A DNA stretch of 37,067 bases from Gammaproteobacteria bacterium (GCA_011523045.1 WTHR01000213.1:1-37067), one strand, 5' to 3'; shown: positions 3,978-37,067, numbered from the stretch's first letter. The notes: a model not told the origin generated them from the letters alone. Made by a program: numbers and translations.

Positions 3978-4002
3978 TGCGCGAGTCAACTGTGGGATGG
4001 CG

Positions 4003-4344
4003 TTAGAGGATATCGAGAACGTTCTCGGGCGGCCGACCGATTGCGGCGCGGTTGCCGTTAACGACAATGGGCCTTTCCAAAAGGATCGGAAACTTTGTAA
4101 TGGCCGTGATCAGCCCGTCTTCACTGGCCGCCTCCAGGCCATTTTCCGCATAAGGCGCTTCTTTCTTGCGGACCATGTCGGCAACCGCACAGCCAAGTGC
4201 TTTTTGGATCTTTTTCAAGGTGGTTTCGCTGGGAGGATCGTTCAGATAATCGATGATTTCAGGCTCAATCCCTTGTTCTGCGAGGAGCGCAAGCGTGGCC
4301 CGTGACTTTGAACAGCGGGGGTTGTGATAGATCTGAATTGCCAT
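4003..4344 (-). CDS. ArsC/YfgD-family glutaredoxin-dependent reductase
   Basis: The protein has 113 residues with the thioredoxin-like ArsC fold. The HNPRCSKSR motif places the reactive cysteine at C11, and the LLERPIVV and GRPPENVL segments are typical of the C-terminal half. Canonical ArsC reduces arsenate to arsenite with glutathione and glutaredoxin. Chromosomal homologs next to wrbA, away from any ars operon, are often annotated as arsenate reductase without a proven role, and no arsB, arsR or acr3 is present here. The start is well supported by GAGGAA seven bases upstream. Treat the arsenate function as a family prediction. Confidence 0.85.
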   Translation of the reverse strand: MAIQIYHNPRCSKSRATLALLAEQGIEPEIIDYLNDPPSETTLKKIQKALGCAVADMVRKKEAPYAENGLEAASEDGLITAITKFPILLERPIVVNGNRAAIGRPPENVLDIL

Positions 4345-4363: not shown

Positions 4364-4392
4364 TTGACAGATCAGAGGGTAATAGTTACATT
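4364..4392 (+). promoter_or_regulatory. Sigma-70-type promoter for the LysM lipoprotein gene
   Basis: A perfect TTGACA -35 box (4364-4369) is followed, after 17 bases, by TACATT (4387-4392), which matches the -10 consensus at four of six positions. The predicted transcript starts near 4399 and leaves a 5' leader of about 70 bases before the ATG at 4472. This is the clearest promoter in the window. Confidence 0.7.
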
Positions 4393-4471
4393 GCGCTCGT
4401 TATACCGCACTGCAAAAACTCCCGCTAAACGGCGTGATTTTATACGCAAACATTCCACAGAGAGCGACCCG

Positions 4472-14000: not shown

Positions 14001-15900
14001 GTTCAAAGTCAGATTTGCTCTTTCCAATCTCAATGTCGCGCCGGTCATGGTCGACAAGGTCAAAGATATGAAGAAAGACCGTCCTGCCGCTTGCGCTCTG
14101 GATTCGAAAAGGGTTTTCGGTCAGTACGTGGAGCCCGAGGTTTTCGATGACGGGCAGTACATCAGACAGCACCACGGCACTCTCAGGGGAATACAGTCTC
14201 AGTTGTGCCTCGTGAGCGGCATATCCTGGTGGTTGGTGAAGCGCAATCTCGAGCTGTGTCTCAGCGTCGGTCTTCGTAATGAGAGCAAGATGATCAAGTC
14301 CTTCGGCCGGGGAGAAGTCTTCACGAAAGGCGGTAGGAAATGACTCGGCCCACTCGTCGGCCAGCGCCAGGCCTTCCCCTTCTCCGTGAAGTTCTTTCAG
14401 CAGAAGGCCAAGTTCATCAGGCCAGGAGCGCGTTAACTCTCTGATCCGGGATTCGACCTGATTCAATTCAGGAGAGTGCGCGGTCCGAGGATCGACACTG
14501 ATGAGGTAGTGAATGCGGGTCAGTACCGATTCGGAGAAGTACACGTTAAATTCATAAGATTGGCCACCGTAAGACGCCATCAACGCGTCGCCCACTTTTT
14601 GCCGCAAGCCGCTATTGAAGCGTTCGCGGGGCACAAAGACCAGGCACGAGTAAAATCGTGAGAAACGGTCTCGCCGCACAAATACCCGGGTGTGCTGACG
14701 TTCCTGCAGCTCAAGCATTCCCATCGCCGTGTCGTAAAGTTCGTCCTGGGTAATCTGAAAGAGATCGTCGCGGGGATACCGCTCGATCAGATTCTGCAGC
14801 ACCTTCATGCCGTGGCCTTGTTCCGGAAGGCCGCTACGAGCCAGTACGTACTGAAGTTTTTGCCGGGAGCCGGGAATATCCATTACGCTGCGGTTGTATG
14901 CACCTGCGGCAAAAAGACCGACCAGACAGGTTTCTCCGATGAGGTCACCGATGGAATTTCGGTGACGTACGAAAAGAACGTCCATATAGGCAGGGCGGTG
15001 TACCAGAGATCGTTTGCTGGATTTGGTGATCATCACCGGTTCACTGTCTTCGGGATCACTTGTGATGTTGTCCGGCAAGACTGAAAGCCGATCAGCCAGA
15101 TCAAGATCGCTGCGTGGTCTCAGGATTCCAAGCGCTGAGGCTGCCTGAGGCGACAACGAAGCATCTCCGTCAGGGGACATGTCGTAACGGATGGCCCCCA
15201 AGAAAGTGAAATTTTCCTCACCGATCCAACGACATAACGCAGAGGCCGCTGAGCCGGCGTTGTTGTCGTCGTCGGGCGTATCCGGGGCATCAAGATCGTC
15301 TGCCAGTGAGAGGGCAAGTTCGCGCATGGCGATGCGATCATCATTCGCCGCCGCGACCTCGCTTAGGACCCGGGACAATTCCCAAACGATGTGGTCGAGT
15401 CGTTCGGTCCGGAATTCCCGGTTGATCTGGAAACACAGAAAGGATTCAAAGGTCGCGCCAGCCGCATCGTGATTCAGTGCGGTAAGGCGGCCGTTTTCAT
15501 CTCGACTCACTTTGACCACAGGGTGGATGGTGAGTTGAATGGTGTAACCGAGTCGGTTCAGGGCCATCGACGCGGAATCGACCAGGAAAGCCATGTCGTC
15601 GACGACCGCTTCGACAACAGTGAAAGGACTCGCATGCGGGCCTTGGCCCTCGGCTGGATTATGGGCGCGCAGCAGCAATTGCCCGGGTTGTCGCTGCTCG
15701 GCGAGGTCGAGGTGGGCGAGTGCGCTCGAATAAAGCGCCTCGGGATCGGACCGCGCAAGATCATCGGAGGGAATCCGATGAAAATAGGCTTCAAAAAAAG
15801 ATTGTGCGAGGCCTGATTTCGCAGGAGTCAGCCGTTGCTTCGCCCAGTCACTGAGCGTTGCGATCAGTCTATTGCGGTCAAATGAAGGGGTTGCCGCCAT
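11062..15900 (-). CDS. gdhB: NAD-specific glutamate dehydrogenase (large, 180-kDa type)
   Basis: The protein has 1612 residues. It belongs to the very large NAD-dependent glutamate dehydrogenase class (Bac_GDH family), which deaminates glutamate to 2-oxoglutarate and ammonia for catabolism. These enzymes have a long N-terminal region with ACT-like domains, a catalytic core near the middle, and a long C-terminal helical region. The catalytic lysine is in the VGSKGGF motif, K845 counting from the ATG. The preceding GLRWSDRPEDFRTEVLGLVKAQ and the GDMSGDVFGNG dinucleotide-binding segment are strong hallmarks. The listed TTG at 15909 is three codons upstream; I prefer the ATG at 15900, though neither has a clear Shine-Dalgarno. 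It is divergent from acetoacetyl-CoA synthetase with 186 bases between. The gene symbol follows Pseudomonas usage. Confidence 0.95.
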   Translation of the reverse strand: MAATPSFDRNRLIATLSDWAKQRLTPAKSGLAQSFFEAYFHRIPSDDLARSDPEALYSSALAHLDLAEQRQPGQLLLRAHNPAEGQGPHASPFTVVEAVVDDMAFLVDSASMALNRLGYTIQLTIHPVVKVSRDENGRLTALNHDAAGATFESFLCFQINREFRTERLDHIVWELSRVLSEVAAANDDRIAMRELALSLADDLDAPDTPDDDNNAGSAASALCRWIGEENFTFLGAIRYDMSPDGDASLSPQAASALGILRPRSDLDLADRLSVLPDNITSDPEDSEPVMITKSSKRSLVHRPAYMDVLFVRHRNSIGDLIGETCLVGLFAAGAYNRSVMDIPGSRQKLQYVLARSGLPEQGHGMKVLQNLIERYPRDDLFQITQDELYDTAMGMLELQERQHTRVFVRRDRFSRFYSCLVFVPRERFNSGLRQKVGDALMASYGGQSYEFNVYFSESVLTRIHYLISVDPRTAHSPELNQVESRIRELTRSWPDELGLLLKELHGEGEGLALADEWAESFPTAFREDFSPAEGLDHLALITKTDAETQLEIALHQPPGYAAHEAQLRLYSPESAVVLSDVLPVIENLGLHVLTENPFRIQSASGRTVFLHIFDLVDHDRRDIEIGKSKSDFERLFGRIWRGQTDNDGFNRLALRAQLDWQQTTFLRAAYRYLKQIRFRYSQDYVIDTLAGNPHMVQRIVRLFETRFDPDLRDERSEALEAIRADIQQGLERVANLDEDRILSAYVNLIEAILRTNYFQQHSPQQPERLSFKIDCAAIARMPQPRPMVEIFVFSTRVEAIHLRGGLVARGGLRWSDRPEDFRTEVLGLVKAQIVKNAVIVPVGSKGGFIVRRLADCAPSERTEEVESCYQTFIRGMLDLTDNRDHDSVIPPPRVVRYDQDDPYLVVAADKGTATFSDMANEVAAEYGYWLDDAFASGGQTGYDHKAMGITARGAWESVKRLFRDLDIDTQTQPFSVMGIGDMSGDVFGNGLLLSRHIRLIGAFNHLHIFIDPNPDAAISFAERERLFQMPRSTWEDYDPTLISEGGGVWPRDIKSIELSEAAQNALGISAKTLSPDELIHEMLKSPVDLLFNGGIGTYIKASTETHESVGDRVNDLVRADASELRCRVIGEGGNLGLTQLARIEYSQRGGLCHTDAIDNAAGVDTSDHEVNIKIVLNAAVEAGEINIDERNNLLSEMTEEVAQLVLRNNYMQTQALALAVDQAPNLIHHHARAIRQLEKSYGLDRGLEYLPTEVEIKKRIAEKKGLTRPELAVLLSHSKISTFQMLLDSDVPEDTFLAEDLERYFPTALSSRFKHLMPAHRLRREIIATHVTNSMINRVGPGFTLRMNELTGAHPSDTARAYAAAREIFRLRDLWHEVEGLDNAVPSKTQKELMRETRILLEQAILWLLRFRPQPIDIALAVTEFRDAVDQLRRGFPRVLAASNRLIQKRRVRRYLNADVPPAIANHVAELAGLSRALDIADVASKGRYGIAQVATVYFDIGDRLGLHWLSDRIRDLSTDNHWHALARTTLRSDLHLTQRTISGLILNSQSSRGKAAVRQWVQQNHTDTERLTQMINDLQKSASPDFAMLSVAVSEAAQLGSHSDPAAAETP

Positions 15901-16086
15901 CAGGAACAACGTTTTTGAGGTCGGGGTAACTCATCGGCTGTTGATGCCGGACTATACGCCAATTCGTACAGTTATTGGGCTTATTGCGCGGCGCTTCGTG
16001 AAATCGTCGGCGCGTTAAGTTTTCTTCGGCACCACGGTAAACTCTCAGGAGTCGTTTTTCAGCGGCAGATTCATCAGAGGAACATC

Positions 16087-24795: not shown

Positions 24796-26118
24796 ATGAG
24801 CCCGCCTGAGATAGACCTGGCGCCGGAGTTAATCGGACAGGTGCTGGATGCGGTGGACAAGGGATTTGAGCGACAACTGGCGTTTACCCAGCAGATGATG
24901 TCGCTCGACTCGACCCGTGGCAATGAGCATCAGGCTCAGGCATGTTTTTACGAAGCGCTTGAATCACGCGGCTTTGAGATGGATCAATGGTCCATTGATA
25001 TTGCCGAGATAGAAGACCACCCCGGGTTCTCGCCTGTCAAAGTCGACTATGACAACGCGGTGAACGTGGTCGGAACCCATACGCCGGTCGAGACCAAGGG
25101 CCGCTCCCTGATCCTGAATGGACACGTGGATGTCGTGCCCACGGGGCCGGTGGATATGTGGACCCGCCCGCCGTTTGAACCCTGGATCGAGGGAGATTGG
25201 CTGTATGGCCGCGGCGGCGCAGACATGAAGGCAGGCCTTTGCGCCAATCTCGCAGCACTGGATGCGCTCAAGACCCTGGGTTGGCAACCCGCCGCTCGCG
25301 TGCATGTGCAGTCGGTTACCGAAGAAGAGTGCACTGGTAATGGCGCACTGTCTGCATTGGTGAGAGGTTATCGGGCGGATGCGGCACTGATTCCAGAGCC
25401 AGAGGAGAACATGCTGGTGCGGGCCAATACTGGTGTGATCTGGTTTCGGGTTCATGTGCGCGGCAGGCCGGTTCATGTCCGTGAGGCAGGTCAGGGGACA
25501 AATGCCATTGAAGCCGCGGTATCCATTATCCCGGCGTTGAAAAAGCTCGAGCGCGAATGGAACGATGCTCGCTCGAAGCATCGCTATTTTGAATCGCTGG
25601 AGCACCCGATCAATTTCAATATCGGCAAGATCGTTGGTGGCGACTGGGCCTCTTCCGTCCCGTCATGGTGTACGTTCGATATGCGTGTGGCGATTTATCC
25701 CGGCGTGGATCCTCGTGATGCTGCCAAGGAGATTGAATCGTGTATCGGGGCGCATGCTGATGAGCATCCTTTCTTGCGCAACAATCCGCCTGAGGTGGAG
25801 TACAACGGATTCTTTGCCCGCGGCTATGTGCTGGAGGAAGGCAGCGACGCTGAGATGGTGTTGGGCCAGGCCCACGCGGCAAGCTTCGGAGCCAGTCTTG
25901 AATCTTTTGTGACTCCGGGATATCTCGATGGCCGGGTGTTCGTGCTTTATGACGACTGTCCTTGCCTCGTGTATGGTCCGGTCTCGCGGGACATCCATGC
26001 CTTTGATGAAAGGGTGAGTCTTGCCTCTTTAAAGCGAGTCACCGGAACGATTGCGCTTTTTGTCGCTTCCTGGTGCGGCCTGGAACCCGCTACTCCTCGG
26101 GATCGTCCCCACGCTTGA
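24796..26118 (+). CDS. M20-family metallopeptidase/deacylase (ArgE/DapE type)
   Basis: The protein has 440 residues. M20 enzymes use two zinc ions to hydrolyse amide bonds, deacylating amino acids or small amides. Visible ligands are H110 in the NGHVDVVP motif, with D112 as the catalytic aspartate. D143 in GADMKAG is the bridging ligand, and the E176-E177 pair in TEEECTGNG holds the general base. The dimerisation domain is central (about 220-330). The ArgE/DapE grouping is family-level; specificity cannot be read out. It is coupled to the amidinotransferase gene, so a substrate that carries both an acyl amide and a guanidino or amidino group is plausible. The 3' end overlaps convergent dinB by 29 bases. 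Confidence 0.87.
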   Translation: MSPPEIDLAPELIGQVLDAVDKGFERQLAFTQQMMSLDSTRGNEHQAQACFYEALESRGFEMDQWSIDIAEIEDHPGFSPVKVDYDNAVNVVGTHTPVETKGRSLILNGHVDVVPTGPVDMWTRPPFEPWIEGDWLYGRGGADMKAGLCANLAALDALKTLGWQPAARVHVQSVTEEECTGNGALSALVRGYRADAALIPEPEENMLVRANTGVIWFRVHVRGRPVHVREAGQGTNAIEAAVSIIPALKKLEREWNDARSKHRYFESLEHPINFNIGKIVGGDWASSVPSWCTFDMRVAIYPGVDPRDAAKEIESCIGAHADEHPFLRNNPPEVEYNGFFARGYVLEEGSDAEMVLGQAHAASFGASLESFVTPGYLDGRVFVLYDDCPCLVYGPVSRDIHAFDERVSLASLKRVTGTIALFVASWCGLEPATPRDRPHA

Positions 26119-27340
26119 CCTGCATAGAAAGACCGACCTGCTCACGAGTGGTACGCGGCAGTTCGCCGATCGCTTTTCTTCCAAAACGCCTGGTGATTTC
26201 GTCTAGGGTCTGATTGAGGGTGTTCCGCCTGGCTTTCTTTTCAGCACCAAAAAGCGGCAGTTGGTCGACAGACTCCGCGGTCAGCCCGGTGCAGCCTACC
26301 CCAAGCAGGCGAATCGCTTCTTTTGGTCCGGATCGATATAGAAGCTGTGTTGCCTGTCTGGCAATTTCGTGACCGTCATCAGTCGGTTGCGGCAGCGTTA
26401 CCCGGCGGGTAAACACCGGATATCCTCGAACACCGGGCCCCGTTCTTCTGGCAGATTTGAATTTCAGGACAACGGTATGTGCGCGTACCTGGTCGTGTCT
26501 AAGGCGTCGGGCGACAGATTCCGCGTGCTCGCGAATCAGTGGTTCGAGTTCCCGATAATCAGAAATGTCTTTGCTGAAAGTGTGCTCCTCGCTGTAGGAG
26601 ACGGCTTCACGATAAGGCTCTACCTCGCGAACATCGTCGCCGCGCGCCAAGCGCGCAATCTCGATCCCCCATTCGCCAAGCAGGTCACGCAGAGTGCCAT
26701 CATCGGCCTTGGCGACATCCCCGATCGTCTCAAACCCCAGCGTTTCCAGTTTTTCTTTCGCAACGGGCCCCACACCCCAGATCCGGCTGACAGGGAGCGG
26801 CTCGAGAAAGCCCTGGACTTCGCCCGCCTTAACTTCAAGCAGGCCGTCAGGTTTCGCTCCTGCACTCGCAATCTTGGCCACCATCTTGACTGGCGCAATC
26901 CCGACTGAGACGGGAAGCGACAAGACTTTTCGGATCCTGCTGCGAAGGGCTTCTCCCACTTCTTGTGGAGGACCCATAAGCCGGGTACTGCCGGTCAGGT
27001 CGATAAAAGCTTCATCCAGTGATACGCGCTCTACGACGGGCGAAAAGTCCCTGAAAATCTTGAAAATGCGGGTGGACTCTTTCTTGTAGAGCGCCATGTT
27101 GCCCCGGACAAACACCAGATCCGGACAGCGTCGACGCGCCTCGACAGACGGCATGGCCGAGCGCACACCAAACTGTCTTGCCTCGTAGCTTGCAGCCGCC
27201 ACTACGCCGCGTGGACCGCTGCCGCCGACCGCTACGGGGCGGCCTCTGAGTTCCGGGTGATCACGCTGCTCCACGGACGCATAAAAAGCATCCATGTCGG
27301 CATGCATGATGACTCGAGGAGGATCGTTAGAGGCAGTCAT
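26090..27340 (-). CDS. dinB: DNA polymerase IV (translesion)
   Basis: This is a Y-family polymerase of 416 residues that bypasses bulky or alkylated lesions. The palm carries HADMDAFYASVEQR (D15) and SLDEAFIDLTG with the metal-binding acidic pair. The thumb has the IWGVGPVAKEKL helix-hairpin-helix, and the little-finger domain includes YSEEHTFSKDI. It is longer than E. coli DinB (351). The tail contains VDQLPLFG, which resembles a clamp-binding peptide (QLPLF), although it is not at the extreme C-terminus; about 45 residues follow it. The preferred start is ATG at 27340; a TTG one codon upstream also reads. No LexA box was recognised between 27341 and 27383. Confidence 0.94.
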   Translation of the reverse strand: MTASNDPPRVIMHADMDAFYASVEQRDHPELRGRPVAVGGSGPRGVVAAASYEARQFGVRSAMPSVEARRRCPDLVFVRGNMALYKKESTRIFKIFRDFSPVVERVSLDEAFIDLTGSTRLMGPPQEVGEALRSRIRKVLSLPVSVGIAPVKMVAKIASAGAKPDGLLEVKAGEVQGFLEPLPVSRIWGVGPVAKEKLETLGFETIGDVAKADDGTLRDLLGEWGIEIARLARGDDVREVEPYREAVSYSEEHTFSKDISDYRELEPLIREHAESVARRLRHDQVRAHTVVLKFKSARRTGPGVRGYPVFTRRVTLPQPTDDGHEIARQATQLLYRSGPKEAIRLLGVGCTGLTAESVDQLPLFGAEKKARRNTLNQTLDEITRRFGRKAIGELPRTTREQVGLSMQVKRGDDPEE

Positions 27341-27383
27341 CAACAGCGAATCTTACAGTCTATTCTGCTGTGTCGGTGAGCGC

Positions 27384-30122
27384 TTAGCCGGTATTGCGCA
27401 GTCCCGCAGCAATTCCGTTGATGGAAAGCAGTAATGCCCGCTGCATCTGATCATTGCGGTCGCGGCTTTTTTCTCGTCGGCTGCGGGTAAGCAATTCCAC
27501 CTGCAGCACGCTAATGGGGTCAAGATACGCATCCCGCACTTCGAGCGTACGACGCAACATCGGCTTGTCGGACAACAGTTCAGTTTCTGTAATTGAGGTG
27601 ATCATCTCCATCGTGAGCGAGTGCTCCTCAACAACCTGATCGAATAAATGATGCAGCTTGGGATCAACCAGCCGTTCAACATAGTGACGTGCGATGGCGA
27701 GATCAGTTTTGGCGAGTGTCATTTCGACGTTTGATACGAACGTTGAGAAGAAGTGCCATTCAGCATACATGCGGCGCAGGTCTTCCCCGTGCCCGGCTTC
27801 CATCGCAGCACGCAGACCGGTACCGGCGCCGAACCATCCAGGAATAATCTGACGTGACTGGGTCCAGCCGAATACCCAGGGAATGGCACGCAGGTCGGCG
27901 ATACCGGCCTTCGCTGCGGACCGGCGCGCGGGCCGGGATCCGATATTCATGGATCCGAGTTCCTCAACCGGTGTCGAGGTGGTGAAGTACTCCGGCAGCC
28001 CCGGGGTTTCGACAAACTGCCGATAGGCCCGGAAGGCGGCACTGGAAACCTGCTCCATGATTTCATACCAGGCCGTGATGGACATCTTGTCATGCCGCGG
28101 CGCTTTGTGGGCGAGGGAGCTTTCCAGGAGGGCGCTGATCGCAAGATTCAGGTTGCGCCGCGCAATAGCGGGCAGGCCGTATTTATCGGCGATCACCTCA
28201 CCTTGCTCTGTCAGTTTAATCTCTCCATCGACGACGCCGGGAGGTTGGCTGAGAATGGAAGCATGGGTCGGGCCGCCCCCACGGCCGATGGTTCCGCCGC
28301 GGCCATGGAATACGCGGATCCGGACGCCGGCCTCCTCGGCGACTTCCTGAATCACCCGAAGTGCTTTGTGAATTTCCCACTGCGACGTGGTGATGCCCCC
28401 GTCCTTATTGGAGTCGGAGTAGCCGACCATGACTTCCTGCTCGTCACCGCGAAGGGTCAGTAGGTGGCGATATGAGGTATTCCTGAAGAGTGTGCGAAGC
28501 GTGGGCCCGATCGATTCCAGATCCTCAATCGTTTCAAAAAGGGGAACAAAATCCAGACGGGCAACATCCTGCCCGAGATCGACCAGGCCGACTTCACGCG
28601 CCAGCAGCACGGGCGCAAGAATATCGTCGACGCCCCGCGTCATGGAGACGATATAGGCATCGATTACCTCGTCGCCATCTCGATCCATGATCGATCGGAG
28701 CGTCCGAAAGAGCGTAAGGTTGTCATGCTCGTTATGACCCTGGGGCGGTGCCAACGGACGACGGCTGTCGAGCTCTTCGACCAGCCGATCCAGCCGTTGC
28801 TCTGGGGTCATGTCCCCATACGCAACGCCCAGCGGCTCAAAGAGCGCGGCCAGTGCCTCATGATGGCGCGCCGAGTGCTCGCGGATATCGAGGCTGGCAA
28901 AATGAAAACCGATCGCACTGACAATCCGCCGAACCCGGGCAAGACGGCCGTCTGCGATCAATGCGCCTCCGTGACTGCGTAAGGAACGATCCATGGCCGC
29001 AAGTTCACTCATTAGTTGATCTGGTGAAGCGTACGCCTCGGCACCGCGGTCTCGCGTTGCCAGGAGACGCTTTTCGATAACGGCGCAGTGCAGTCGATAG
29101 GGTTCAAGCAGCCGGGCTGGCGTCAGCACATCGGAGTGCTCAGCTGTGTCTTGAGCAACCATCTGCTCCATTTCCTCGGAGACCTGATAAAGACGCCCGC
29201 TCATTGAGGCATCATCTGAGAGTTGCTTAATCTCACTGATCAGCAGGGCAATGGCGCGGTCACGCTGCAGGTCAAGCACAGCGACAGTGGTATCCGGGGA
29301 GACATTAGGGTTGCCGTCGCGGTCACCGCCGACCCACGAGCCAAATCGGATCGGAACATGATCCGGCCGCATCTTCTCGCCAATATCTCCCAGGGTCGCT
29401 GCGATCGTGTCAAAAAGATCCGGCAGAGCTTCGCTAACGGTCTGAGAAAGGTAATAAAGGACAAATTTGGCCTCGTCAAAAGGGTCAGGTCTTTCGTGGC
29501 GAATCTCGTCGGTTTGCCAGATGGCCTCGATCATCTCATCAATGCGCCGGTCGATACGCTCGCGTTCAATCTGCGTACAGCGCACATCCCCCCGCGCTTT
29601 TAGGAGGTCGGCGATAGTGGCAAGTTTGTTGAGGATGGACCGCCTTGAGGCTTCCGTCGGATGGGCGGTAAAGACGGGTCGGAAATCTGACCGGTTAACC
29701 AGATCCCCGATCTCGGGCGCTGTGACACCGGAATCAAGGAGACTCCGGACGGTCTGACCGAAGTGATTGCCCGCCCGGCTACCGCCCACGTTGAGATCTT
29801 CGATACGATGTTCCTGCTCGGCGATATTGGCGAGATGAAAATAGACGGTAAAGGCCCGCACCAGATGAATGGCGCGGTCACCGTCCAGGCCGGCCAGGAG
29901 GTCTGTGAGTTCGGCGGTAACGCCGGTCGGGCCACCCGTCTGACGAAGCCTTTGGGCAAGGTGGCGTACTTCCTCAACAGTATCGAGAAGCGCCTGGCCG
30001 TGTTGACGGACGAGGGTGTCTCCTAACTGATGTCCCAGACGCCGAATATCGGCCCGCAGTGCCGCATCGGCCGTCTCGGCCCGCGCGGGAATGGACTCCT
30101 TGGGATGGATGGTGCTTTTCAT
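27384..30122 (-). CDS. ppc: Phosphoenolpyruvate carboxylase
   Basis: PEPC carboxylates PEP with bicarbonate to oxaloacetate. The protein has 912 residues from the ATG at 30122 (E. coli 883). All catalytic blocks are present: FTAHPTEASRRS with H154, GYSDSNKDGG, the glycine-rich FHGRGGTIGRGGGP loop, and a C-terminal GLRNTG typical of the family. An upstream extension to 30182 is not conserved in the family. It is divergent from mcl-mtkA-mtkB, a grouping I recall from serine-cycle methylotrophs, where ppc sits with mtkA, mtkB and mclA. In that cycle it supplies the oxaloacetate that becomes malate and then malyl-CoA. An ordinary anaplerotic role is also possible. Confidence 0.97.
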   Translation of the reverse strand: MKSTIHPKESIPARAETADAALRADIRRLGHQLGDTLVRQHGQALLDTVEEVRHLAQRLRQTGGPTGVTAELTDLLAGLDGDRAIHLVRAFTVYFHLANIAEQEHRIEDLNVGGSRAGNHFGQTVRSLLDSGVTAPEIGDLVNRSDFRPVFTAHPTEASRRSILNKLATIADLLKARGDVRCTQIERERIDRRIDEMIEAIWQTDEIRHERPDPFDEAKFVLYYLSQTVSEALPDLFDTIAATLGDIGEKMRPDHVPIRFGSWVGGDRDGNPNVSPDTTVAVLDLQRDRAIALLISEIKQLSDDASMSGRLYQVSEEMEQMVAQDTAEHSDVLTPARLLEPYRLHCAVIEKRLLATRDRGAEAYASPDQLMSELAAMDRSLRSHGGALIADGRLARVRRIVSAIGFHFASLDIREHSARHHEALAALFEPLGVAYGDMTPEQRLDRLVEELDSRRPLAPPQGHNEHDNLTLFRTLRSIMDRDGDEVIDAYIVSMTRGVDDILAPVLLAREVGLVDLGQDVARLDFVPLFETIEDLESIGPTLRTLFRNTSYRHLLTLRGDEQEVMVGYSDSNKDGGITTSQWEIHKALRVIQEVAEEAGVRIRVFHGRGGTIGRGGGPTHASILSQPPGVVDGEIKLTEQGEVIADKYGLPAIARRNLNLAISALLESSLAHKAPRHDKMSITAWYEIMEQVSSAAFRAYRQFVETPGLPEYFTTSTPVEELGSMNIGSRPARRSAAKAGIADLRAIPWVFGWTQSRQIIPGWFGAGTGLRAAMEAGHGEDLRRMYAEWHFFSTFVSNVEMTLAKTDLAIARHYVERLVDPKLHHLFDQVVEEHSLTMEMITSITETELLSDKPMLRRTLEVRDAYLDPISVLQVELLTRSRREKSRDRNDQMQRALLLSINGIAAGLRNTG

Positions 30123-30182
30123 GGGCGCGACAGTACGGTCATTTCCTCGCCGAGACAAGAAAAAATTTGAGCATGCCCTCAA

Positions 30183-30470
30183 ATTGGTTTCGAGTGGGAA
30201 AAACGACCTCCGTATCCAATTTTGCCTTGATATCCAGAGGCGAGTGGCTGTCGTTGCCCAATTGCCATAAGTCTTTCTTGATAAGGCTAATCAGTAATCG
30301 CACTCATTTTTGGACTGAAGTCGCCGTATCCTTCCGGCCGCAAAATGAACCCGATGCTCTGATCGATCAGGCGCGTTGTGGTTTTGGTGGGGGTTTTGGC
30401 ACGCAGATGTGTTCGTCCCCCTCGATCACCGATTCCTGACTCCACAAACCGATTAACCAAAGAGAAGACC
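30183..30470. promoter_or_regulatory. Divergent ppc/mcl control region
   Basis: This region separates ppc from mcl and must carry both promoters. I could not place a confident -35/-10 pair on either strand. A perfect 12-base palindrome, CTGATCGATCAG, at 30359-30370 lies about 100 bases before the mcl ATG and could be an operator, though such palindromes also arise by chance. An in-frame extension of mcl to 30378 would cross this region and has no family match. Confidence 0.35.
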
Positions 30471-31418
30471 ATGAGTCACACCCGTACCCCAGAGCGCACC
30501 CGTCGATTGCAACGCAGCGAGTTGGCAGTGCCCGGCTCAAACCCCAATATGTTTGAAAAAGCCGCGGCGAGTAATGTTGATTACGTGTTTCTCGATCTTG
30601 AAGATGCGGTTGCTCCTGATGACAAGCTGGCTGCCCGGGCCAACATTATCCAGGCCCTCAGAGACATCGACTGGCGTGGCGCCGGCAAGACCATTTCCAT
30701 CCGTATCAACGGCCTCGATACCCACTATATGTACCGAGATGTTGTTGAGATCGTAGAGCAGGCGGGCGAGTTTCTGGACACCATCCTGATTCCGAAAGTC
30801 GGTGTCCCGAGTGATGTGTATATGGTGGACGCCATGCTCTCCCAGATTGAGACCGCGGTAGGCATCAATCACCGGATTGGTCTCGAAGCGTTGATTGAAA
30901 CGACGCTCGGCATGGCGAATGTCGAAGCGATTGCGATGGCCAGTGATCGTTTGGAAGCCATGCACTTTGGCGTAGCGGACTATGCCGCCAGCTGCCGGGC
31001 TCGTACGACAAACATCGGCGGTCTCAATCCGGATTACCCGGGCGACCAATGGCACGACGGTCTCTCGCGGATGCTGGTCGCCTGCCGGGCTTATGGTCTT
31101 CGGCCTGTCGACGGGCCTTTTGGAGATTTCAATGATCCAGAAGGGTTTCAACTGGCTGCACGCCGTGCGGCGGCGTTGGGCTATGAAGGCAAGTGGGCTA
31201 TCCACCCGTCCCAGATTGACTTGGCAAATGGTGTTTTCTCGCCGCCAGCGTCAGAGGTAGACAGAGCAAAGCGCATTCTTGTCGCCCTTGAGGAAGCCGC
31301 TGCGCAGGGTAAGGGTGCGGCCCAGCTGGATGGTCGGATGATCGACGCGGCATCAGCGCGCATGGCCGAGAACGTGGTTGCGATGGATGATGCGATTCAG
31401 TCAAAGGCCAGTAGTTGA
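30471..31418 (+). CDS. mcl: L-malyl-CoA lyase (HpcH/HpaI aldolase family)
   Basis: Malyl-CoA lyase splits L-malyl-CoA into glyoxylate and acetyl-CoA, and can run in reverse. The protein has 315 residues. Family marks are the HRSELAVPGSNP-like opening (here QRSELAVPGSNP), VFLDLEDAVAPDDK, SIRINGLDTHYMYRDVV with R78, and LIETTLGMANVEAIAM with E143. FGVADYAAS carries D170, and EGKWAIHPSQIDLAN is near the C-terminus. The strong match to methylotroph and Rhodobacter-type Mcl, rather than citrate lyase beta chain, is from memory of the family. Compared with those it lacks about 15 residues after IGGLNPDY. AGAGAAG precedes the ATG at 30471. It is the first gene of the mcl-mtkA-mtkB unit. Confidence 0.93.
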   Translation: MSHTRTPERTRRLQRSELAVPGSNPNMFEKAAASNVDYVFLDLEDAVAPDDKLAARANIIQALRDIDWRGAGKTISIRINGLDTHYMYRDVVEIVEQAGEFLDTILIPKVGVPSDVYMVDAMLSQIETAVGINHRIGLEALIETTLGMANVEAIAMASDRLEAMHFGVADYAASCRARTTNIGGLNPDYPGDQWHDGLSRMLVACRAYGLRPVDGPFGDFNDPEGFQLAARRAAALGYEGKWAIHPSQIDLANGVFSPPASEVDRAKRILVALEEAAAQGKGAAQLDGRMIDAASARMAENVVAMDDAIQSKASS

Positions 31419-31492
31419 TGAGGGGTCGGGGAACTGACGTGATTCTGTTCAACGGGCGGCACGCATAACACTTTACCGAGGAGGGGACGACG

Positions 31493-32668
31493 ATGGATAT
31501 CCACGAGTACCAGGCCAAGGCGCTGCTCGCTGATTTTGGGGTGCCGATACCGCCAGGCGGCCTCGCCTACAGTCCGGAGCAGGCGCAGTATCGGGCTTCA
31601 GAGATTGGCGGTGAGCAATGGGTGATCAAAGCGCAGGTCCATACCGGAGGCCGGGGCAAGGCGGGAGGCATCCGTTTATGCCAGAGCGAGCAGGAGGTCT
31701 GGACCGCAGCTGACGAAATGTTGGGCAGCCGATTGGTGACCAACCAGACAGGTCCCAGAGGCCGCGGCGTGTATCGTCTTTATGTTGAATCCGTGGCGGA
31801 TATCGAGCGCGAGATTTATCTTGGTTTTGTACTGGACCGGGCGACAGAACGGGTGATGTTGGTAGCGTCCGCGGCAGGTGGAATGGAGATCGAGCAGATC
31901 GCAGAAGAAGATCCGGAGTCGATGATTCGGGTTGTGATTGAGCCGGCGGTGGGTCTTCAGGCTTTCCAGGCCCGTGAGGTTGCCTTTGCACTCGGATTGG
32001 ATGCGTCTCTGGTGACCGAGGCGGCCAATACCTTAAGAGCCTGTTACCGGTCTTTCCGCGATCTTGACGCCACGATGGTCGAGATCAATCCCTTGGTGGT
32101 CACGGCTGACGGGCGCATCCTTGCGCTTGATGCCAAGATGACATTTGATGACAACGCACTTTTCAAGCATCAACGCATATCTGAGTTGCGGGATAAATCT
32201 CAGGAAGACCCCCGTGAGATGAGGGCCACCGATCGGGGGCTCAGTTACGTGGGATTGGAAGGCGATATTGGCTGCATCATTAATGGCGCCGGCTTGGCGA
32301 TGGCGACCATGGATATGATCAAGCACTCGGGTGGCGAACCAGCAAACTTCCTTGATATCGGGGGTGGCGCATCACCTGAACGGGTCGCCAAGGCATTCAA
32401 CCTGGTGCTTTCGGATGACAATGTCAAAGGTGTGCTGGTGAATATCTTTGCCGGAATCAACCGCTGCGACTGGGTCGCCCAGGGCGTGGTCAAGGCGATG
32501 CAGGATCTGGATATTCAGGTGCCGGTCGTGGTGCGACTCTCGGGAACCAACGTAGAAGAAGGTCGGCGGATTCTTGAAGAGAGTTCAGTGTCTCTGATCA
32601 CCGCTGACACGCTGGCCGAAGCGGCTGAAAAATCGGTCGCGGCTGTACATAAGGGGGTGAGCGCATGA
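31493..32668 (+). CDS. mtkA: Malate-CoA ligase (malate thiokinase) subunit beta
   Basis: This is a 391-residue ATP-grasp subunit related to SucC. With MtkB it makes L-malyl-CoA from malate, ATP and CoA. The [20 protein letters not shown] opening, [17 protein letters not shown] loop, [16 protein letters not shown], and [15 protein letters not shown] and [10 protein letters not shown] blocks are shared with succinate-CoA ligase. Malate specificity is inferred. The best arguments are the mcl gene just upstream (75 bases) and the MtkB partner, which resembles known MtkB rather than SucD; a sucCD pair would normally sit next to sucAB. GAGGGG lies upstream of the ATG. The stop overlaps the mtkB start. 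Confidence 0.88.
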
Positions 32669-33555
32669 GCATCGTTATTGATAGCGGGACTCCAGTCCTC
32701 GTGCAGGGTTTCACAGGGCGGATCGGATCATTCCATAGCGAGGAAATGATCGAGTACGGTACCAACATCGTTGGCGGAGTGACGCCCGGCCGGGGCGGCA
32801 CGACCCATCAGGGTCGGCCGGTATTCGATACCGTTAAGGATGCAGTATCGGCGACCGGAGCCGAGGCGAGCATCGTGTTTGTTCCGCCGCCTTTCGCGGC
32901 TGATGCGATTATGGAGGCGGCTGACGGAGGTCTGCGTGCCTGCGTCTGCATCACAGACGGCATTCCCGCCCAGGACATGATGCGGGTCAAGCGCTATATG
33001 CGGCGCTACAAGTCCGACAAGCGAATGCAATTGATTGGCCCAAACTGCGCAGGGGTGATCAGCCCCGGCAAAGCCCTGCTTGGCATTATGCCGGGTCATA
33101 TCTATCAGGAGGGTGAGGTAGGCATCATCGGCCGGTCTGGTACGTTGGGTTACGAGGCAGCATCTCAACTTAAAGCCGAGGGGATCGGCGTTTCAACCAG
33201 CGTCGGTATTGGGGGTGACCCGATCAATGGGAGTTCTTTCAAGGATCACCTGGCGGCTTTCGAAAAGGATCCGCAAACTCGCGTGGTGGTGATGATCGGT
33301 GAGATCGGGGGTCCTCAAGAGGCAGAAGCCGCCCAGTTTGCCCGTGATCACATGAGCAAGCCCGTAGTGGGATATATCGCCGGCCTGACAGCACCCAAAG
33401 GCCGAACCATGGGTCACGCTGGCGCCATTGTTTCGGCGGCTGGAGAGTCCGCTGAGGAAAAGGTGGAAATCCTGCGCCAGTGCGGGGTCACGGTGGTAGA
33501 ACGCCCGTCCGAGTTTGGATCTACTGTGAGAAAGGTGTTGGCGACGATCTCCTGA
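32665..33555 (+). CDS. mtkB: Malate-CoA ligase (malate thiokinase) subunit alpha
   Basis: The protein has 296 residues and is the CoA-binding and phosphohistidine subunit. The CoA-binding domain is at the N-terminus ([18 protein letters not shown]), with [38 protein letters not shown] follows, and then [14 protein letters not shown]. The catalytic histidine is H251 in [10 protein letters not shown]. The RVKRYMRRY stretch is a feature I associate with MtkB, while the SucD equivalent differs. The start ATG overlaps the mtkA stop as ATGA, so the subunits are translationally coupled in a 1:1 ratio. It is last in the unit, followed 11 bases later by the stop of a convergent gene. Succinate-CoA ligase is the alternative. 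Confidence 0.88.
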
Positions 33556-33566
33556 GCCAGGAACAC

Positions 33567-34589
33567 CTAATCGGCGAGATTTAATTCCTTACCGTAGCCA
33601 AAAAGGCCCGGGGTGCCCCCAGTGTGGACGAAGAGGCTCGATTGATCCTCGCGGCTGGCGCGGACATGGTTCAGGCACGCCGCCATCGATTTTCCGGTGT
33701 AAACCGGGTCGAGCAGCAGACCCTCGCGCTGGGCGCACAGATTAATGGCCTCAAGTGTCTGCTCATTGAGTTTGCCGTAGCCAGGCTGGAATGTCTCATC
33801 GGTAATCTCGATATCTTCAGGTTTTACGGGGTTTTCCAATTTGAGCAGAGCGGCGATTTCTTCGCAGCGCTGTTTGATCCTTTGTTGCTGCGAAGTTCGG
33901 TCTCGCCTGACACAGACACCGATCACAGGTTTAAGCCAGTTATGTGACCGCAATCCAAAAAGAAGTCCCGCATGTGTGCTGCCGCTTCCTGAAGCGACGA
34001 AGATGTGACTGATCTCATCTTCCAGGCTCTCCAACTGACCCAGGAGCTCTGAGGCGGCCCGCACGTACCCCAGTGCGCCAAGCGGCGGATGGCCGGGGGC
34101 CAAAGGAATGATATAGGGCTGCCTGCCTGCGGCGCGTAGTTGATCGGCGATCCTGTTGAGATTGGCATCCGCCCCGTTTTCGTCCTCGCCCTCAGGATAG
34201 GTGTGCAGGGTAGCTCCCAGCAGGCGGTCCAGCAGGACGTTGCCGGATTGCCGGTAGGCCGCCCCGGTATCCCCGACGCGTTCTTCAAGTTGAATGTGGC
34301 AATCAAGCCCCAGCTTTGCCGCAGCGGCTGCGGCCATGCGGACAAAGTTGGACTGGACGGCGCCTGTGATCAATATGGTGTCCGCATGCTGCTGAAGCGC
34401 TTCACCGAAGTAGTATTCAAGCTGGCGGGCTTTGTTTCCTCCCATCGCGAGCCCGGTACAGTCATCACGTTTGACGTATAGCGCTCCCCGTCCCAGCACC
34501 CCGCTGAGATTGTTCAGTCGCTCGATCGGCGTTGGGGTATGGGCAAGCGGAATTCTGGGCAGGAGATCGAGGTTTGCGCTGATGGACAT
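33567..34589 (-). CDS. PLP-dependent D-cysteine desulfhydrase / L-cysteate sulfo-lyase-like enzyme
   Basis: This is a 340-residue fold-type II PLP enzyme of the ACC deaminase/D-cysteine desulfhydrase group. The PLP lysine is K53 in AMGGNKARQLEYY, with the phosphate loop in ASGSGSTHAG and the C-terminal VYTGKSMAAC and FVHTGGTPGLFGY blocks. Members include DcyD (D-cysteine to pyruvate, H2S and ammonia), CuyA (L-cysteate to pyruvate, sulfite and ammonia) and ACC deaminase. DcyD and CuyA are similar in length and cannot be separated here. It lies 71 bases downstream of the MttB-like gene on the same strand, so it may be read in that operon. No sulfite exporter is adjacent. Confidence 0.8.
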   Translation of the reverse strand: MSISANLDLLPRIPLAHTPTPIERLNNLSGVLGRGALYVKRDDCTGLAMGGNKARQLEYYFGEALQQHADTILITGAVQSNFVRMAAAAAAKLGLDCHIQLEERVGDTGAAYRQSGNVLLDRLLGATLHTYPEGEDENGADANLNRIADQLRAAGRQPYIIPLAPGHPPLGALGYVRAASELLGQLESLEDEISHIFVASGSGSTHAGLLFGLRSHNWLKPVIGVCVRRDRTSQQQRIKQRCEEIAALLKLENPVKPEDIEITDETFQPGYGKLNEQTLEAINLCAQREGLLLDPVYTGKSMAACLNHVRASREDQSSLFVHTGGTPGLFGYGKELNLAD

Positions 34590-34660
34590 CCGGACCTGTG
34601 CTCAAGTGAATACGCTACAGCGCAAATATATCGTGACGCGGTTTGAAAATGTTGGGGCGG

Positions 34661-36190
34661 TTACGCGCTCAAGGAGGCGCCCCCGGCCTGGGTGCGTTGC
34701 TCGATGAAGGCGTCGATCTCCTCGAGAAGCGACTGATCCAGCGGCGGGGGCGTAAAGTCTGCCAACGCGGCTCTTGCAATGCGATTGGCCCGCCGAGTGG
34801 CATCCACCGAGCCATTCTCGGTCCAGGTTTCAAAGTTCGACCAGTCTGAGAGCAGCGGGGCATAAAACGCGGTTTCGTACCGAGCAAGCGTATGCTGGGT
34901 GCCAAAAAAGTGTCCACCAGGTTCGATCTCATCAAAAGCGGATGCAGCCAGCGTGTCTTCGTCACAGATGACGGGCTGCATCAGGCTTGCAAACATCTGC
35001 AGCATTTCAACGTCGATAACAAATTTTTCCAAAGAAGCGGTCAGGCCGCCTTCCAGCCAACCAGCGCCGTGCAGGAGAATATTGCACCCGCCCATGATGG
35101 CGCCCCAGCAGGACATCTGTGATTCATAAGCAGACTGCGCATCAGGTGCGTTGGACGCGTTAACGTTCGAGGTCCGATAGGGAAGGCGGTATCGGCGGGC
35201 AAGTTGACCCGAAGCAAAAGCTGCCTTGACATACTCAGGGGTACCAAATGCCGGCGCCCCGGTTTTCATATCAACATTGCTTGTGAACCCGCCGTACACC
35301 ACTGGGGCGCCGGGTTGGACGATTTGCGCCAGGGCAATACCGGCCAGGGCTTCGGCGTTCTGCTGTGCCAGCGCACCGGGAAGCGTGACCGGCGCCATGG
35401 CACCCGCCAGGGTAAATGGTGTCAGGATCATCGCTTGGCGCGCTTTCGCGAAGTCAATAATCCCCGCACACATCAGCTCATCGAGCTGCAGCGGCGAGTT
35501 GGCGTTCACCACCGTGTAACAGTGCACTTTTGATTCAAAGGTCTGACGGTCCATGCCGTAAGCCATCCTGAGAATCTCAAGAGAATCTGCGACCGCTTCG
35601 CGGCCGCGGGAGTAGATGAAGGTCGGCTTATCGGTCAGGGTGACTACCGACCGGGTCATGTGGAGATGACGGACGTTCGTTGGCAGATCCTGCGGCTCAA
35701 CCATCGGTGTCGTGAGATGGATCACGTCGTAGTTTTGCGCCATCCGCAAAAGGTCACGGAATGCGTCGTGTGTCCCCGCCCGTCGTCCGTTCTCAAGATC
35801 AGAGTAATGCGGTGGACCGCCCACAGTGGCGAAGACCAGATTGTTGTCACCAACCTCAAACCATCGGTTCGCAGAACGCCCGTGCATGGTAAACGTCGGC
35901 GGTGCAGGCATGACCGTCTGCAGCAGCAAGTCAGGGTCAAAGCGCACCATCAGCGTGTCTTCGCTAACGACGAAACCCGCGTCGCGGTAGTGCCCCCGGG
36001 CTTCTTCGCTCAGCACTTTGATGCCTTTATCACGCAGGAGATTGAGCGAGGCGAGGTGAATCGCCTCGATTTCGTCTTCGCTGAACTGGGCAATCGGCGG
36101 GTAGGGGTTCTTTATTCGTAGCCAGGAGTCGCCCGGTTGCGGCGCGGGCCGTGACTCACTGCGACGAGGTCGTTTGCGATTTCGCGCCAT
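34661..36190 (-). CDS. MttB-superfamily (trimethylamine methyltransferase-like) protein, non-pyrrolysine
   Basis: The protein has 509 residues. The family's TIM-barrel methyltransferases move a methyl group from a quaternary or tertiary amine to a corrinoid protein. The ORF has no in-frame TAG, so it is the non-pyrrolysine type, which includes glycine betaine, proline betaine and carnitine demethylases. Recognisable blocks are FATVGGPPHYSDLENGRRAGT, FAKARQAMILTPFTLAGAMAPVTLPGAL, and the SNAPDAQSAYESQMSCWGAIMGGCN region in the second half. It sits 42 bases after the stop of a dimethylglycine dehydrogenase-type gene on the same strand. No corrinoid protein or activase is in the window, which a classical MttB would need; it may be encoded elsewhere or the enzyme may work differently. 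Substrate unknown. Confidence 0.85.
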   Translation of the reverse strand: MARNRKRPRRSESRPAPQPGDSWLRIKNPYPPIAQFSEDEIEAIHLASLNLLRDKGIKVLSEEARGHYRDAGFVVSEDTLMVRFDPDLLLQTVMPAPPTFTMHGRSANRWFEVGDNNLVFATVGGPPHYSDLENGRRAGTHDAFRDLLRMAQNYDVIHLTTPMVEPQDLPTNVRHLHMTRSVVTLTDKPTFIYSRGREAVADSLEILRMAYGMDRQTFESKVHCYTVVNANSPLQLDELMCAGIIDFAKARQAMILTPFTLAGAMAPVTLPGALAQQNAEALAGIALAQIVQPGAPVVYGGFTSNVDMKTGAPAFGTPEYVKAAFASGQLARRYRLPYRTSNVNASNAPDAQSAYESQMSCWGAIMGGCNILLHGAGWLEGGLTASLEKFVIDVEMLQMFASLMQPVICDEDTLAASAFDEIEPGGHFFGTQHTLARYETAFYAPLLSDWSNFETWTENGSVDATRRANRIARAALADFTPPPLDQSLLEEIDAFIEQRTQAGGASLSA

Positions 36191-36232
36191 GAGAAGATCT
36201 AGTGATAGGGGTGATTTCTAAAGCGGAGCAGA

Positions 36233-37067
36233 TTACCCCCGCATTCTGGCACCTTGGGGGTCCCAGGCAGGTTCGGTCAGGGTGACCGCCCCGCGCCGTT
36301 TGCCAACGACATCCACCATCAGGGCGCCGTTGCTCTCATCAACGTCGGCATCGAGCAGGCCCATCGCGAGGCTCTTGGCAGTATGGTGCCCAAAGCCGCC
36401 CGACGTCACAAAACCCACCCGCTTGTCGTTCTGCCAGATCGGCTCATATCCCGAGGCATCGGCATCATCGGCATCAATCTCAAGGGTCACCAGCCGTTGC
36501 CCCACACTTCCTTCAGATCGTTCTTTGGCCGCTGCCTCATGACCGACAAAGTCATCGCGGGACCAGTCAATCCATCGATCCATCCCGGTCATGCCCGGAG
36601 TGCGATCCTGGGTGAATTCTGCGCTCCAGATGCCAAAACTCTTCTCCAGCCGCAATGCGTTCATGGCGTAGAACCCGAACTCTTTTATATCCTGACCGGC
36701 GCCGGCTTCCAGCAGGATGTCTCGCAGAGTGATGTGCTCAGCGGCACCGCAGTTGATTTCATAGCCAAGTTCCCCGCAAACCGAGAGTCGTGCGACTTTG
36801 GCACGAATCAGGCCCACGTCCATCGTCGCGCAACCCATGAAGGGCAGTTCTGTATCAACGTCCTGATGGGTCAGCGCGGAAAGCACTTCTCGGGATTTCG
36901 GACCTGCTATCCCAAAACCGACCATTGCGTCAGAGACATCCCGTACGTCGACCCCGTCACGGCGATGATCATCAAACCACCGCATGTGCCAACTGCGAAG
37001 GTAGTAAGACCCCATGATCCACCACCGGCCATCGCCCCAGTTGAACAGGGTGAGATCCCCTTTGAGA
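36233..37067 (-). CDS. FAD-dependent dehydrogenase with folate-binding GcvT domain, C-terminal part only (DMGDH/sarcosine dehydrogenase-like)
   Basis: The gene runs off the right edge, and the reading frame is open to 37066, so only the last 278 residues are visible. They form the aminomethyltransferase (GcvT) domain found at the C-terminus of dimethylglycine and sarcosine dehydrogenases. Marks are GFGIAGPKSREVLSALT, VARLSVCGELGYEI, ALRLEKSFGIWSAEFTQD, and RVGFVTSGGFGHHTAKSLAMGL. The whole enzymes are 800-860 residues: an N-terminal FAD domain oxidises the N-methyl group and the C-terminal domain passes it to tetrahydrofolate as methylene-THF. DMSP demethylase (DmdA) shares the fold, but the sequence pattern here fits the dehydrogenase. 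The ATG at 37015 is internal. It is upstream of, and probably co-transcribed with, the MttB-like gene. Confidence 0.85.
   Translation of the reverse strand, partial: LKGDLTLFNWGDGRWWIMGSYYLRSWHMRWFDDHRRDGVDVRDVSDAMVGFGIAGPKSREVLSALTHQDVDTELPFMGCATMDVGLIRAKVARLSVCGELGYEINCGAAEHITLRDILLEAGAGQDIKEFGFYAMNALRLEKSFGIWSAEFTQDRTPGMTGMDRWIDWSRDDFVGHEAAAKERSEGSVGQRLVTLEIDADDADASGYEPIWQNDKRVGFVTSGGFGHHTAKSLAMGLLDADVDESNGALMVDVVGKRRGAVTLTEPAWDPQGARMRG

Follow-up and report, generated by a model that had tools for sequence, protein, structure and literature searches.

The serine-cycle genes of Methylorubrum and Hyphomicrobium comprise sga-hpr-mtdA-fch-mtkAB-ppc-mcl, and the spread of serine cycles by horizontal transfer is known in kind. 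Hydroxyproline catabolism uses an epimerase or dehydratase, a D-hydroxyproline dehydrogenase and a deaminase of the dihydrodipicolinate-synthase family, and the hydroxyproline betaine pathway of Pelagibaca and Paracoccus (HpbD) uses a Rieske enzyme and another demethylase. For glycine betaine, a report on Ruegeria pomeroyi describes demethylation with MtgC, MetF2, MtgD and cobalamin reactivation (PMC12478193); for SAR11 Ia, another predicts that methyl groups are used for energy and not for net assimilation (PMC3160333). How much osmolyte carbon is kept in the food web depends on the use that marine heterotrophs make of methyl groups, as fuel or as material for biomass. Here we describe a stretch of 37,067 nucleotides from a gammaproteobacterium (the window), in which four genes, ppc, mcl, mtkA and mtkB, form a predicted serine-cycle core (the cassette) beside a putative operon for the demethylation of methylated amines.

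The reading we favour, with a probability of roughly 0.64, is that the cassette was gained horizontally and lies with dinB on one side and the end of an older operon for methylated amines on the other, in a genus that is probably marine, judging in part from its osmolyte genes. Horizontal gain had been proposed in a preliminary description of this DNA and is still the most likely explanation, given a patchy distribution, an empty site and the trees. The unusual feature is that the gain of four genes, in a cassette of the Acidimicrobiia type, can be mapped to a site that is empty in a relative. The window is the entire contig C115 of the source genome (G000), a 2.72-Mb draft in 250 contigs that is 90.5% complete with 1.35% contamination.

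The predicted serine-cycle cassette and its relatives

The gene ppc (phosphoenolpyruvate (PEP) carboxylase; 27384..30182, minus strand) scores 953.7 bits against NF000584 (cut-off 815) and points away from three genes on the plus strand: mcl (serine-cycle-type malyl-CoA lyase; 30471..31418, 315 amino acids), mtkA (malate--CoA ligase beta subunit; 31493..32668; NF010647, 698.7 bits, cut-off 604) and mtkB (malate--CoA ligase alpha subunit; 32665..33555; assigned by family model, tree and GHAG motif). This divergent arrangement, already recognized in the preliminary description, is borne out by the positions of the open reading frames (ORFs) and by the family models. The mcl gene starts with ATG, with AAGAGAAG directly upstream. 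The ppc ORF encodes 932 amino acids from a TTG start; homology to distant relatives begins only near residue 33-42, which probably puts the true start some 100 bases into the ORF.

Mcl is closest in the PDB to 5ugr, a malyl-CoA lyase/beta-methylmalyl-CoA lyase that we take to be the M. extorquens enzyme, at 414.5 bits versus 93 to 116 bits for entries named as citrate lyases. Assignment as a citrate lyase was rejected, as Mcl falls below the cut-off of the CitE model (179 vs 443). The family model for MtkB lumps the alpha subunit of malate--CoA ligase with that of succinate--CoA ligase, and MtkB retains the GHAG motif at E. coli SucD residue 246. In a 26-row tree, the window MtkAB grouped with 22 rows from mcl-mtkAB loci with support of 100/100, and was split with the same support (100/100) from E. 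coli SucCD and from two homologous pairs of the source genome, so that identity as SucCD was also rejected. The branching of MtkAB or Mcl with sucCD or citrate lyase, which the preliminary description had named as refuting its proposal, was thus not seen, and by homology Mcl and MtkAB are of the serine-cycle type. The broader proposal of a serine-cycle core beside a folate-linked demethylation operon is likewise supported by homology, and in this sense the serine cycle is a prediction, with respect to both enzyme activities and flux.

Relatives of Mcl were collected by scanning genome contigs, and the best 80 of at least 591 confirmed relatives were kept. Divergent ppc|mcl-mtkAB occurred in ten of these 80 loci, two from the genus of the source genome and eight from Acidimicrobiia (Actinomycetota; L036, L037, L040, L045, L052, L061, L074 and L088), which make up 8 of the 78 non-genus loci. 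Among the other 70, 51 had no ppc in at least 3 kb upstream, five had ppc elsewhere and 14 had less than 3 kb upstream. In a joined Mcl-MtkA-MtkB tree of 78 rows, the genus was sister to two Acidimicrobiia loci (support of 100 in the Shimodaira-Hasegawa-like approximate likelihood ratio test, SH-aLRT) and stood beside three more (99), and in a Ppc tree of 37 rows the genus and Acidimicrobiia were united with support of 100. Trees were computed under LG+G4 with no mixture model, and the joined and Ppc trees were quick searches. Rows in the joined tree required near-full Mcl, MtkA and MtkB, which excluded L036, L040 and L088 of the Acidimicrobiia as well as other loci; L034 and L035 were also left out, as they repeat L114 and L118. 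Mis-binned Acidimicrobiia contigs are an unlikely cause of the link, as these loci have a GC content of 66-71% and the genes that flank the cassette in L045 and L074 are also found in the other Acidimicrobiia loci. No MttB match was found in the Acidimicrobiia loci within the stretches examined. The kinship with Acidimicrobiia is therefore firm, and an actinobacterial or closely related source is the likeliest; the direction of transfer is not firm.

Distribution, insertion site and direction of transfer

The cassette is patchily distributed. We sampled 20 genomes of the genus, including the source genome, and 13 other genomes of the family, many of them drafts or incomplete. Within the genus, mcl (at least 89% identity) was present in nine genomes and ppc in the same nine, a full co-occurrence in this sample, and neither gene was found in the other 11. 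Nor was ppc found in any of the 13 other genomes of the family. On its left, the cassette borders dinB (DNA polymerase IV; 26090..27343, minus strand). On its right, mtkB faces a gene for a pyridoxal 5'-phosphate (PLP) enzyme and then mttB, encoding a methyltransferase, an order preserved in all seven relatives whose contigs span the mtkB border. In the cassette-free genome G008 (locus L198), the site is empty: the PLP gene adjoins dinB, which is followed by an M20 deacylase gene, with 58 bases between the PLP and dinB ORFs as called, which is the gene neighbourhood of the window minus the cassette. The slot beside dinB takes different inserts. By reading of the sequences, the same slot in G006 (L196 4659-9192) and G003 (L197 1340-5873) contains genes for a tripartite ATP-independent periplasmic (TRAP) transporter receptor, a fused TRAP permease and a flavin adenine dinucleotide (FAD) oxidase.

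A 16-row tree of MttB and the PLP enzyme placed the cassette genomes and the cassette-free G015 in one group (100/100), with G008 just outside it (97/95). Further out than G008 were G003, G006, G018 and a second G015 copy. This second copy (L194, on G015:C54) is a diverged PLP-mttB-GcvT set with other ORFs alongside. Apart from the placement of G009 and G014, the cassette tree and the host-gene tree recover the same small groups. The simplest account is one gain in the ancestor of the clade and a loss or assembly gap in G015, although movement of the cassette within the genus is also conceivable. Elsewhere in the order, other families have Mcl of different lineages (70-75% identity in G035, G045, G055, G058 and G060; 55-61% in G048, G051 and G053), which suggests several separate gains of serine-cycle genes.

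Several observations weigh against a single, recent and actinobacterial gain. G015 lies inside the cassette clade yet lacks mcl and ppc at 95% completeness, which requires the loss or assembly gap just mentioned, and absences in general are soft because most genomes are drafts. G009 and G014 group with G002, G007 and G017 in the cassette tree (SH-aLRT 90) and with G000, G010, G013 and G019 in the MttB-PLP tree (98/98), so inheritance from one gain without later movement is not established. The GC content of the cassette, overall and at third codon positions, equals that of neighbouring genes in the window, whereas that of the Acidimicrobiia loci is 66-71%; we accordingly discarded composition as a sign of recent transfer, and the match implies that the gain is not recent and that composition lends no support to transfer. 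On the putative donor side, the actinobacterial locus L062 branches elsewhere in the joined tree, with a Gemmatimonadales locus. Acidimicrobiia form a single clade in the Ppc tree (support 71), and a constraint holding the five Acidimicrobiia rows of the joined tree together was not rejected (p 0.059; the groups in all constrained trees were chosen after the tree was seen), so that the direction of transfer is argued from patchiness and nesting only. The tree alone would thus allow the reverse direction, in which the cassette was ancestral in the gammaproteobacterial family and lost many times, and Acidimicrobiia were recipients. This we regard as quite improbable: ppc is confined to 9 of the 20 genus genomes with none among the 13 others, and in three genomes outside the cassette clade the slot has either nothing (G008) or another insert (G003 and G006). 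A constraint uniting the genus with the five nearest other gammaproteobacterial rows was rejected (p 2.1e-4). Loci from Roseovarius, Hyphomicrobium, Mesorhizobium and Pelagibacteraceae are many among the best 80 Mcl relatives, as would be expected had the cassette come from alphaproteobacteria, but these rows branch elsewhere. A constraint joining the genus with 27 alphaproteobacterial (Rhizobiales- and Rhodobacterales-type) rows was rejected (p 5.6e-5); 12 Pelagibacteraceae-type rows, outside this test, sit in another branch of the joined tree with support of 100; and none of the alphaproteobacterial loci among the best 80 has divergent ppc|mcl, some being too short upstream to tell. The alphaproteobacterial source suggested in the preliminary description is therefore very hard to sustain, and a gain from actinobacteria or their close relatives is preferred.

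Possible completion of the cycle and the neighbouring operon

If the cassette is to support a serine cycle, the steps from glyoxylate back to PEP must be encoded elsewhere. The preliminary description had named the absence of such genes from the genome as its other refuting outcome; candidates for them were found. The aminotransferase on contig C7 has as its best PDB match the serine--glyoxylate aminotransferase 6pk1 (344 bits) and is 43% identical to the Hyphomicrobium gene beside mcl, and a second, on C16, is of the alanine/serine--glyoxylate type. Among eight matches to PF02826 (2-hydroxyacid dehydrogenase), the best candidate for hydroxypyruvate reductase is on C182. Contig C11 encodes a protein with DUF4147 (157.8 bits) and MOFRL (100.3 bits) domains, both above cut-off, a combination that we take to mark glycerate 2-kinase. 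Genes for formate--tetrahydrofolate ligase (FTHFS) and FolD are adjacent on C35, the former above cut-off and the latter assigned by best matches, below the cut-off of each model. Isocitrate lyase is encoded on C72.

Much of this complement does not depend on the cassette. In the 9 genus genomes that carry the cassette, glycerate 2-kinase was found in 7, FTHFS in 7 and the corrinoid domain in all; in the 11 that do not, the corresponding counts were 8, 9 and 10. Isocitrate lyase was present in six of the eight cassette-free genus genomes searched for it. As candidates for the missing steps are present, several of them also in cassette-free relatives, the four genes may have completed the cycle, among the steps searched. 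Three results temper this prediction. Both aminotransferase types also occur in cassette-free relatives and are independent of the cassette; the C182 candidate scores 433.7 bits against PRK06487, a model that presumably covers glycerate dehydrogenases, just below its cut-off of 448; and isocitrate lyase was not found in the empty-site genome G008. Two further ideas were discarded: the C16 aminotransferase is not confined to cassette genomes, having an orthologue (72%) in the cassette-free G003, and the gene preceding it is agmatinase-like and not a hydroxypyruvate reductase.

Potential sources of methyl groups are spread over the genome. There are nine MttB-family matches and one match to the corrinoid domain PF02607 in the source genome. 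At least one PF02607 match was found in 19 of the 20 genus genomes and exactly one in 16 of them; up to 16 MttB matches occur in other genomes of the order. A cluster on C21 encodes a corrinoid protein (B12-binding and B12-binding_2 domains), a protein of the methylenetetrahydrofolate reductase (MTHFR) family, a Pterin_bind methyltransferase and a RACo-type protein. On C35 (L262 9849-17836), folD and the FTHFS gene lie beside glutamine-synthetase-, glutamate-synthase- and GXGXG-domain genes (GmaS/MgsBC-like), a set that we assume to be the GmaS/N-methylglutamate route for monomethylamine. A dimethylsulfoniopropionate (DMSP) demethylase, DmdA, is encoded on C14 (542 bits, cut-off 410); the same stretch (L132) also carries genes for a RipC/CitE-like lyase, a second FAD/GcvT dehydrogenase and a choline/betaine-type ATP-binding cassette (ABC) transporter.

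The demethylation operon runs on the minus strand towards mtkB. The preliminary description had correctly placed an MttB-like gene and a dehydrogenase of the dimethylglycine dehydrogenase type here, but the gene directly convergent to mtkB had been overlooked. It encodes a PLP enzyme of the D-cysteine desulfhydrase/D-cysteate sulfo-lyase family (33567..34589, 340 amino acids; PDB 7ysk, 271.6 bits), which we do not identify as CuyA, the D-cysteate sulfo-lyase, as its score against NF052482 is 363 bits with a cut-off of 450. This gene is kept beside mttB in all genus loci that reach it and has no place in the proposed pathway. The adjacent gene (34661..36190; PF06253, 618 bits) encodes a non-pyrrolysine member of the MttB superfamily, with an open frame of 509 amino acids and no in-frame stop. 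The pyrrolysine-containing trimethylamine methyltransferase MttB was rejected on the basis of this lack of an in-frame amber codon and of its TIGR02369 score (325, cut-off 525). The PDB matches of the window protein include 4yyc (311 bits) and the glycine betaine methyltransferase 9yce (286 bits), and it is 86-99% identical in cassette-bearing relatives. For the FAD/folate amine dehydrogenase, the gene type was right, but the window contains only its 3' part with the GcvT domains (36233..37066; PF01571 and PF08669; 277 amino acids), as the contig end cuts the gene. The FAD half was located on another contig of the assembly, C245, which supplies the part corresponding to residues 1-532 of an 803-residue relative and whose final 20 bases match the window's end, read on the other strand, without a difference. 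That relative, intact in L118, has DAO, FAO_M, GCV_T and GCV_T_C domains and is closest to the dimethylglycine dehydrogenase 5l46 (527.6 bits).

In relatives with long contigs, and in the source genome across C245 and the window, the operon order is enolase-family gene, dihydrodipicolinate-synthase-family gene, FAD/folate dehydrogenase, MttB and PLP enzyme, and divergent from it are genes for a major facilitator superfamily transporter, FAD oxidoreductases, a 2Fe-2S protein and an ABC transporter. The L118 copy of the enolase-family protein, 86% identical to the one on C245, scores 517 bits against NF043002, cis-3-hydroxy-L-proline dehydratase (cut-off 500), and matches PDB 4mgg at 418.7 bits. 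It was not labelled as an HpbD-family 2-epimerase, as it is nearer to 4mgg than to 4h2h and 2pmq (190 bits), both of which we take to be HpbD. Genomes without the cassette also have the operon, and so does G022, from another genus of the family, over the extent that its contig covers; the cassette and the operon thus seem to have separate histories, with the operon the older. Trimethylamine or glycine betaine had been suggested as substrates, but the gene set points elsewhere. Because of the hydroxyproline-dehydratase-family and dihydrodipicolinate-synthase-family enzymes, the FAD oxidoreductases and the 2Fe-2S protein, we favour an N-methylated hydroxyproline, for example hydroxyproline betaine, as the most likely substrate. 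Two features sit poorly with this assignment, namely that the enolase-family enzyme is not nearest to HpbD and that the PLP enzyme falls outside the scheme. Among the papers listed in searches of the open-access literature, none links hydroxyproline betaine with an MttB-family enzyme, which is weak evidence of novelty as most subscription journals lay outside the search.

Taken together, these genes suggest the following scheme. Ppc would convert PEP to oxaloacetate, which would be reduced to malate; MtkAB would activate malate to malyl-CoA, and Mcl would cleave malyl-CoA to glyoxylate and acetyl-CoA. From glyoxylate, carbon would get back to PEP through the candidate aminotransferase, hydroxypyruvate reductase and glycerate 2-kinase found elsewhere in the genome, with serine hydroxymethyltransferase adding the one-carbon unit and isocitrate lyase regenerating glyoxylate. 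MttB-type methyltransferases would pass methyl groups to the one MtgC-like corrinoid protein, and from there an MtgD-like methyltransferase and a MetF-type reductase would bring them into the folate pool. FAD/GcvT dehydrogenases would deliver methyl groups directly as methylene-folate, monomethylamine would enter by the GmaS/N-methylglutamate-type route and DMSP by DmdA. In the neighbouring operon, MttB would remove the first methyl group from N-methylated hydroxyproline and the FAD/folate enzyme the second. A bolder extension, which we offer tentatively and consider less probable than not, is that a four-gene actinobacterial graft made a methyl-oxidizing genus methyl-assimilating and that the operon next to it handles N-methylated hydroxyproline by a new route linked to corrinoid, supplying methylene-folate directly to the cycle. 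Under such a graft, the recipients would already have had corrinoid- and FAD-dependent demethylation, folate oxidation, glyoxylate aminotransferase, glycerate kinase and mostly isocitrate lyase, and would apparently have lacked only PEP carboxylase, malate thiokinase and malyl-CoA lyase.

Parts of this scheme could be wrong in different ways. The cassette may not be assimilatory at all: malyl-CoA lyases are reversible, so Mcl and MtkAB could form a malate/glyoxylate module, with Mcl replacing malate synthase for instance by condensing glyoxylate and acetyl-CoA, and ppc could be anaplerotic. The lack of ppc in the 11 cassette-free genus genomes and the 13 other family genomes implies that the cassette brings PEP carboxylation as such, and a glyoxylate-making isocitrate lyase is present, both of which suit this explanation. 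We nevertheless judge it unlikely, as the aminotransferase, reductase, kinase and folate steps all have candidates, the cassette-free genomes with isocitrate lyase presumably manage without this Mcl, and MtkAB would probably be needless for such a use. Somewhat less doubtful is that the operon acts on another substrate, such as a methylated sulfonated or other cyclic amino acid, with the enolase-family enzyme catalysing another reaction. The last gene of the operon belongs to the D-cysteate-lyase family, albeit below the model cut-off, the binding protein of the divergent ABC transporter weakly matches the sulfonate/taurine type, and the genome encodes other homologues of the enolase-family enzyme, for a total of 11 matches; set against these are the score of this enzyme above the equivalog cut-off and the fit of the gene set to the known hydroxyproline route. 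We see the chances as evenly balanced on whether the cassette and the operon are neighbours by accident, in a slot that simply takes insertions. The link is metabolically sensible, as both sets meet at methylene-folate on paper, and the neighbourhood is kept in every cassette-bearing relative that spans the mtkB-PLP border. The adjacency may still be accidental, because the two sets converge and do not form a single transcription unit, and because the slot has other inserts in G003 and G006 and none in G008; the operon, moreover, occurs without the cassette.

The left flank of the window was covered by scanning ten of its ORFs. Of the genes previously assigned there, wrbA stood (3381-4067), whereas purMN, hda and arsC were not confirmed among the ten; the scan did not take in every ORF of the flank. 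Other ORFs identified among the ten encode proS, acetoacetate--CoA ligase and lgt. The ORF at 4364-5416 had no NCBIfam match at 1e-40 and in the PDB weakly matched the potassium-binding protein Kbp, and a 1615-residue ORF at 11062-15909, adjoining proS, had no NCBIfam match at E 1e-40.

Comparison with described systems

Members of this genus differ, among other things, by a four-gene cassette at one mapped site, with one relative in which that site is empty. They offer a natural with/without comparison for the smallest gain that could turn a methyl oxidizer into a methyl assimilator, and the kinship of the cassette suggests that central carbon metabolism was transferred between phyla. For one of the nine MttB-family matches of the source genome, the neighbouring operon points to N-methylated hydroxyprolines as a candidate class of substrate.

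Each part of the locus resembles a described system and departs from it. As in the hydroxyproline betaine pathway of Pelagibaca and Paracoccus, the operon combines an enolase-superfamily enzyme, two demethylase-type genes, FAD oxidoreductases and a dihydrodipicolinate-synthase-family gene; unlike that pathway, its enolase-family enzyme is nearer to 4mgg, and the demethylases here are MttB and an FAD/folate dehydrogenase. With MtgBCD of R. pomeroyi, as described in the report cited above (PMC12478193), the genome shares MttB-family, stand-alone corrinoid, pterin-binding and MTHFR-family proteins and a RACo-type reactivator, whereas the MttB of the window lies in an operon with hydroxyproline-type genes and the substrate in that report is glycine betaine. 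The Mcl, MtkAB and Ppc of the window are of the same kinds as in the serine cycle of Methylorubrum and Hyphomicrobium, but the cassette consists only of ppc, mcl and mtkAB, its ppc is divergent and the trees place it with Acidimicrobiia. The Acidimicrobiia ppc|mcl-mtkA-mtkB loci differ from the window in their GC content of 66-71% and in having their own flanks, shared among Acidimicrobiia (L045 and L074). They are alike in carrying a divergent ppc beside mcl in eight of eight cases, in sharing a common branch with the cassette and in their best identities to the window proteins, which reach 86% for MtkA, 87% for MtkB and 70% for Ppc.

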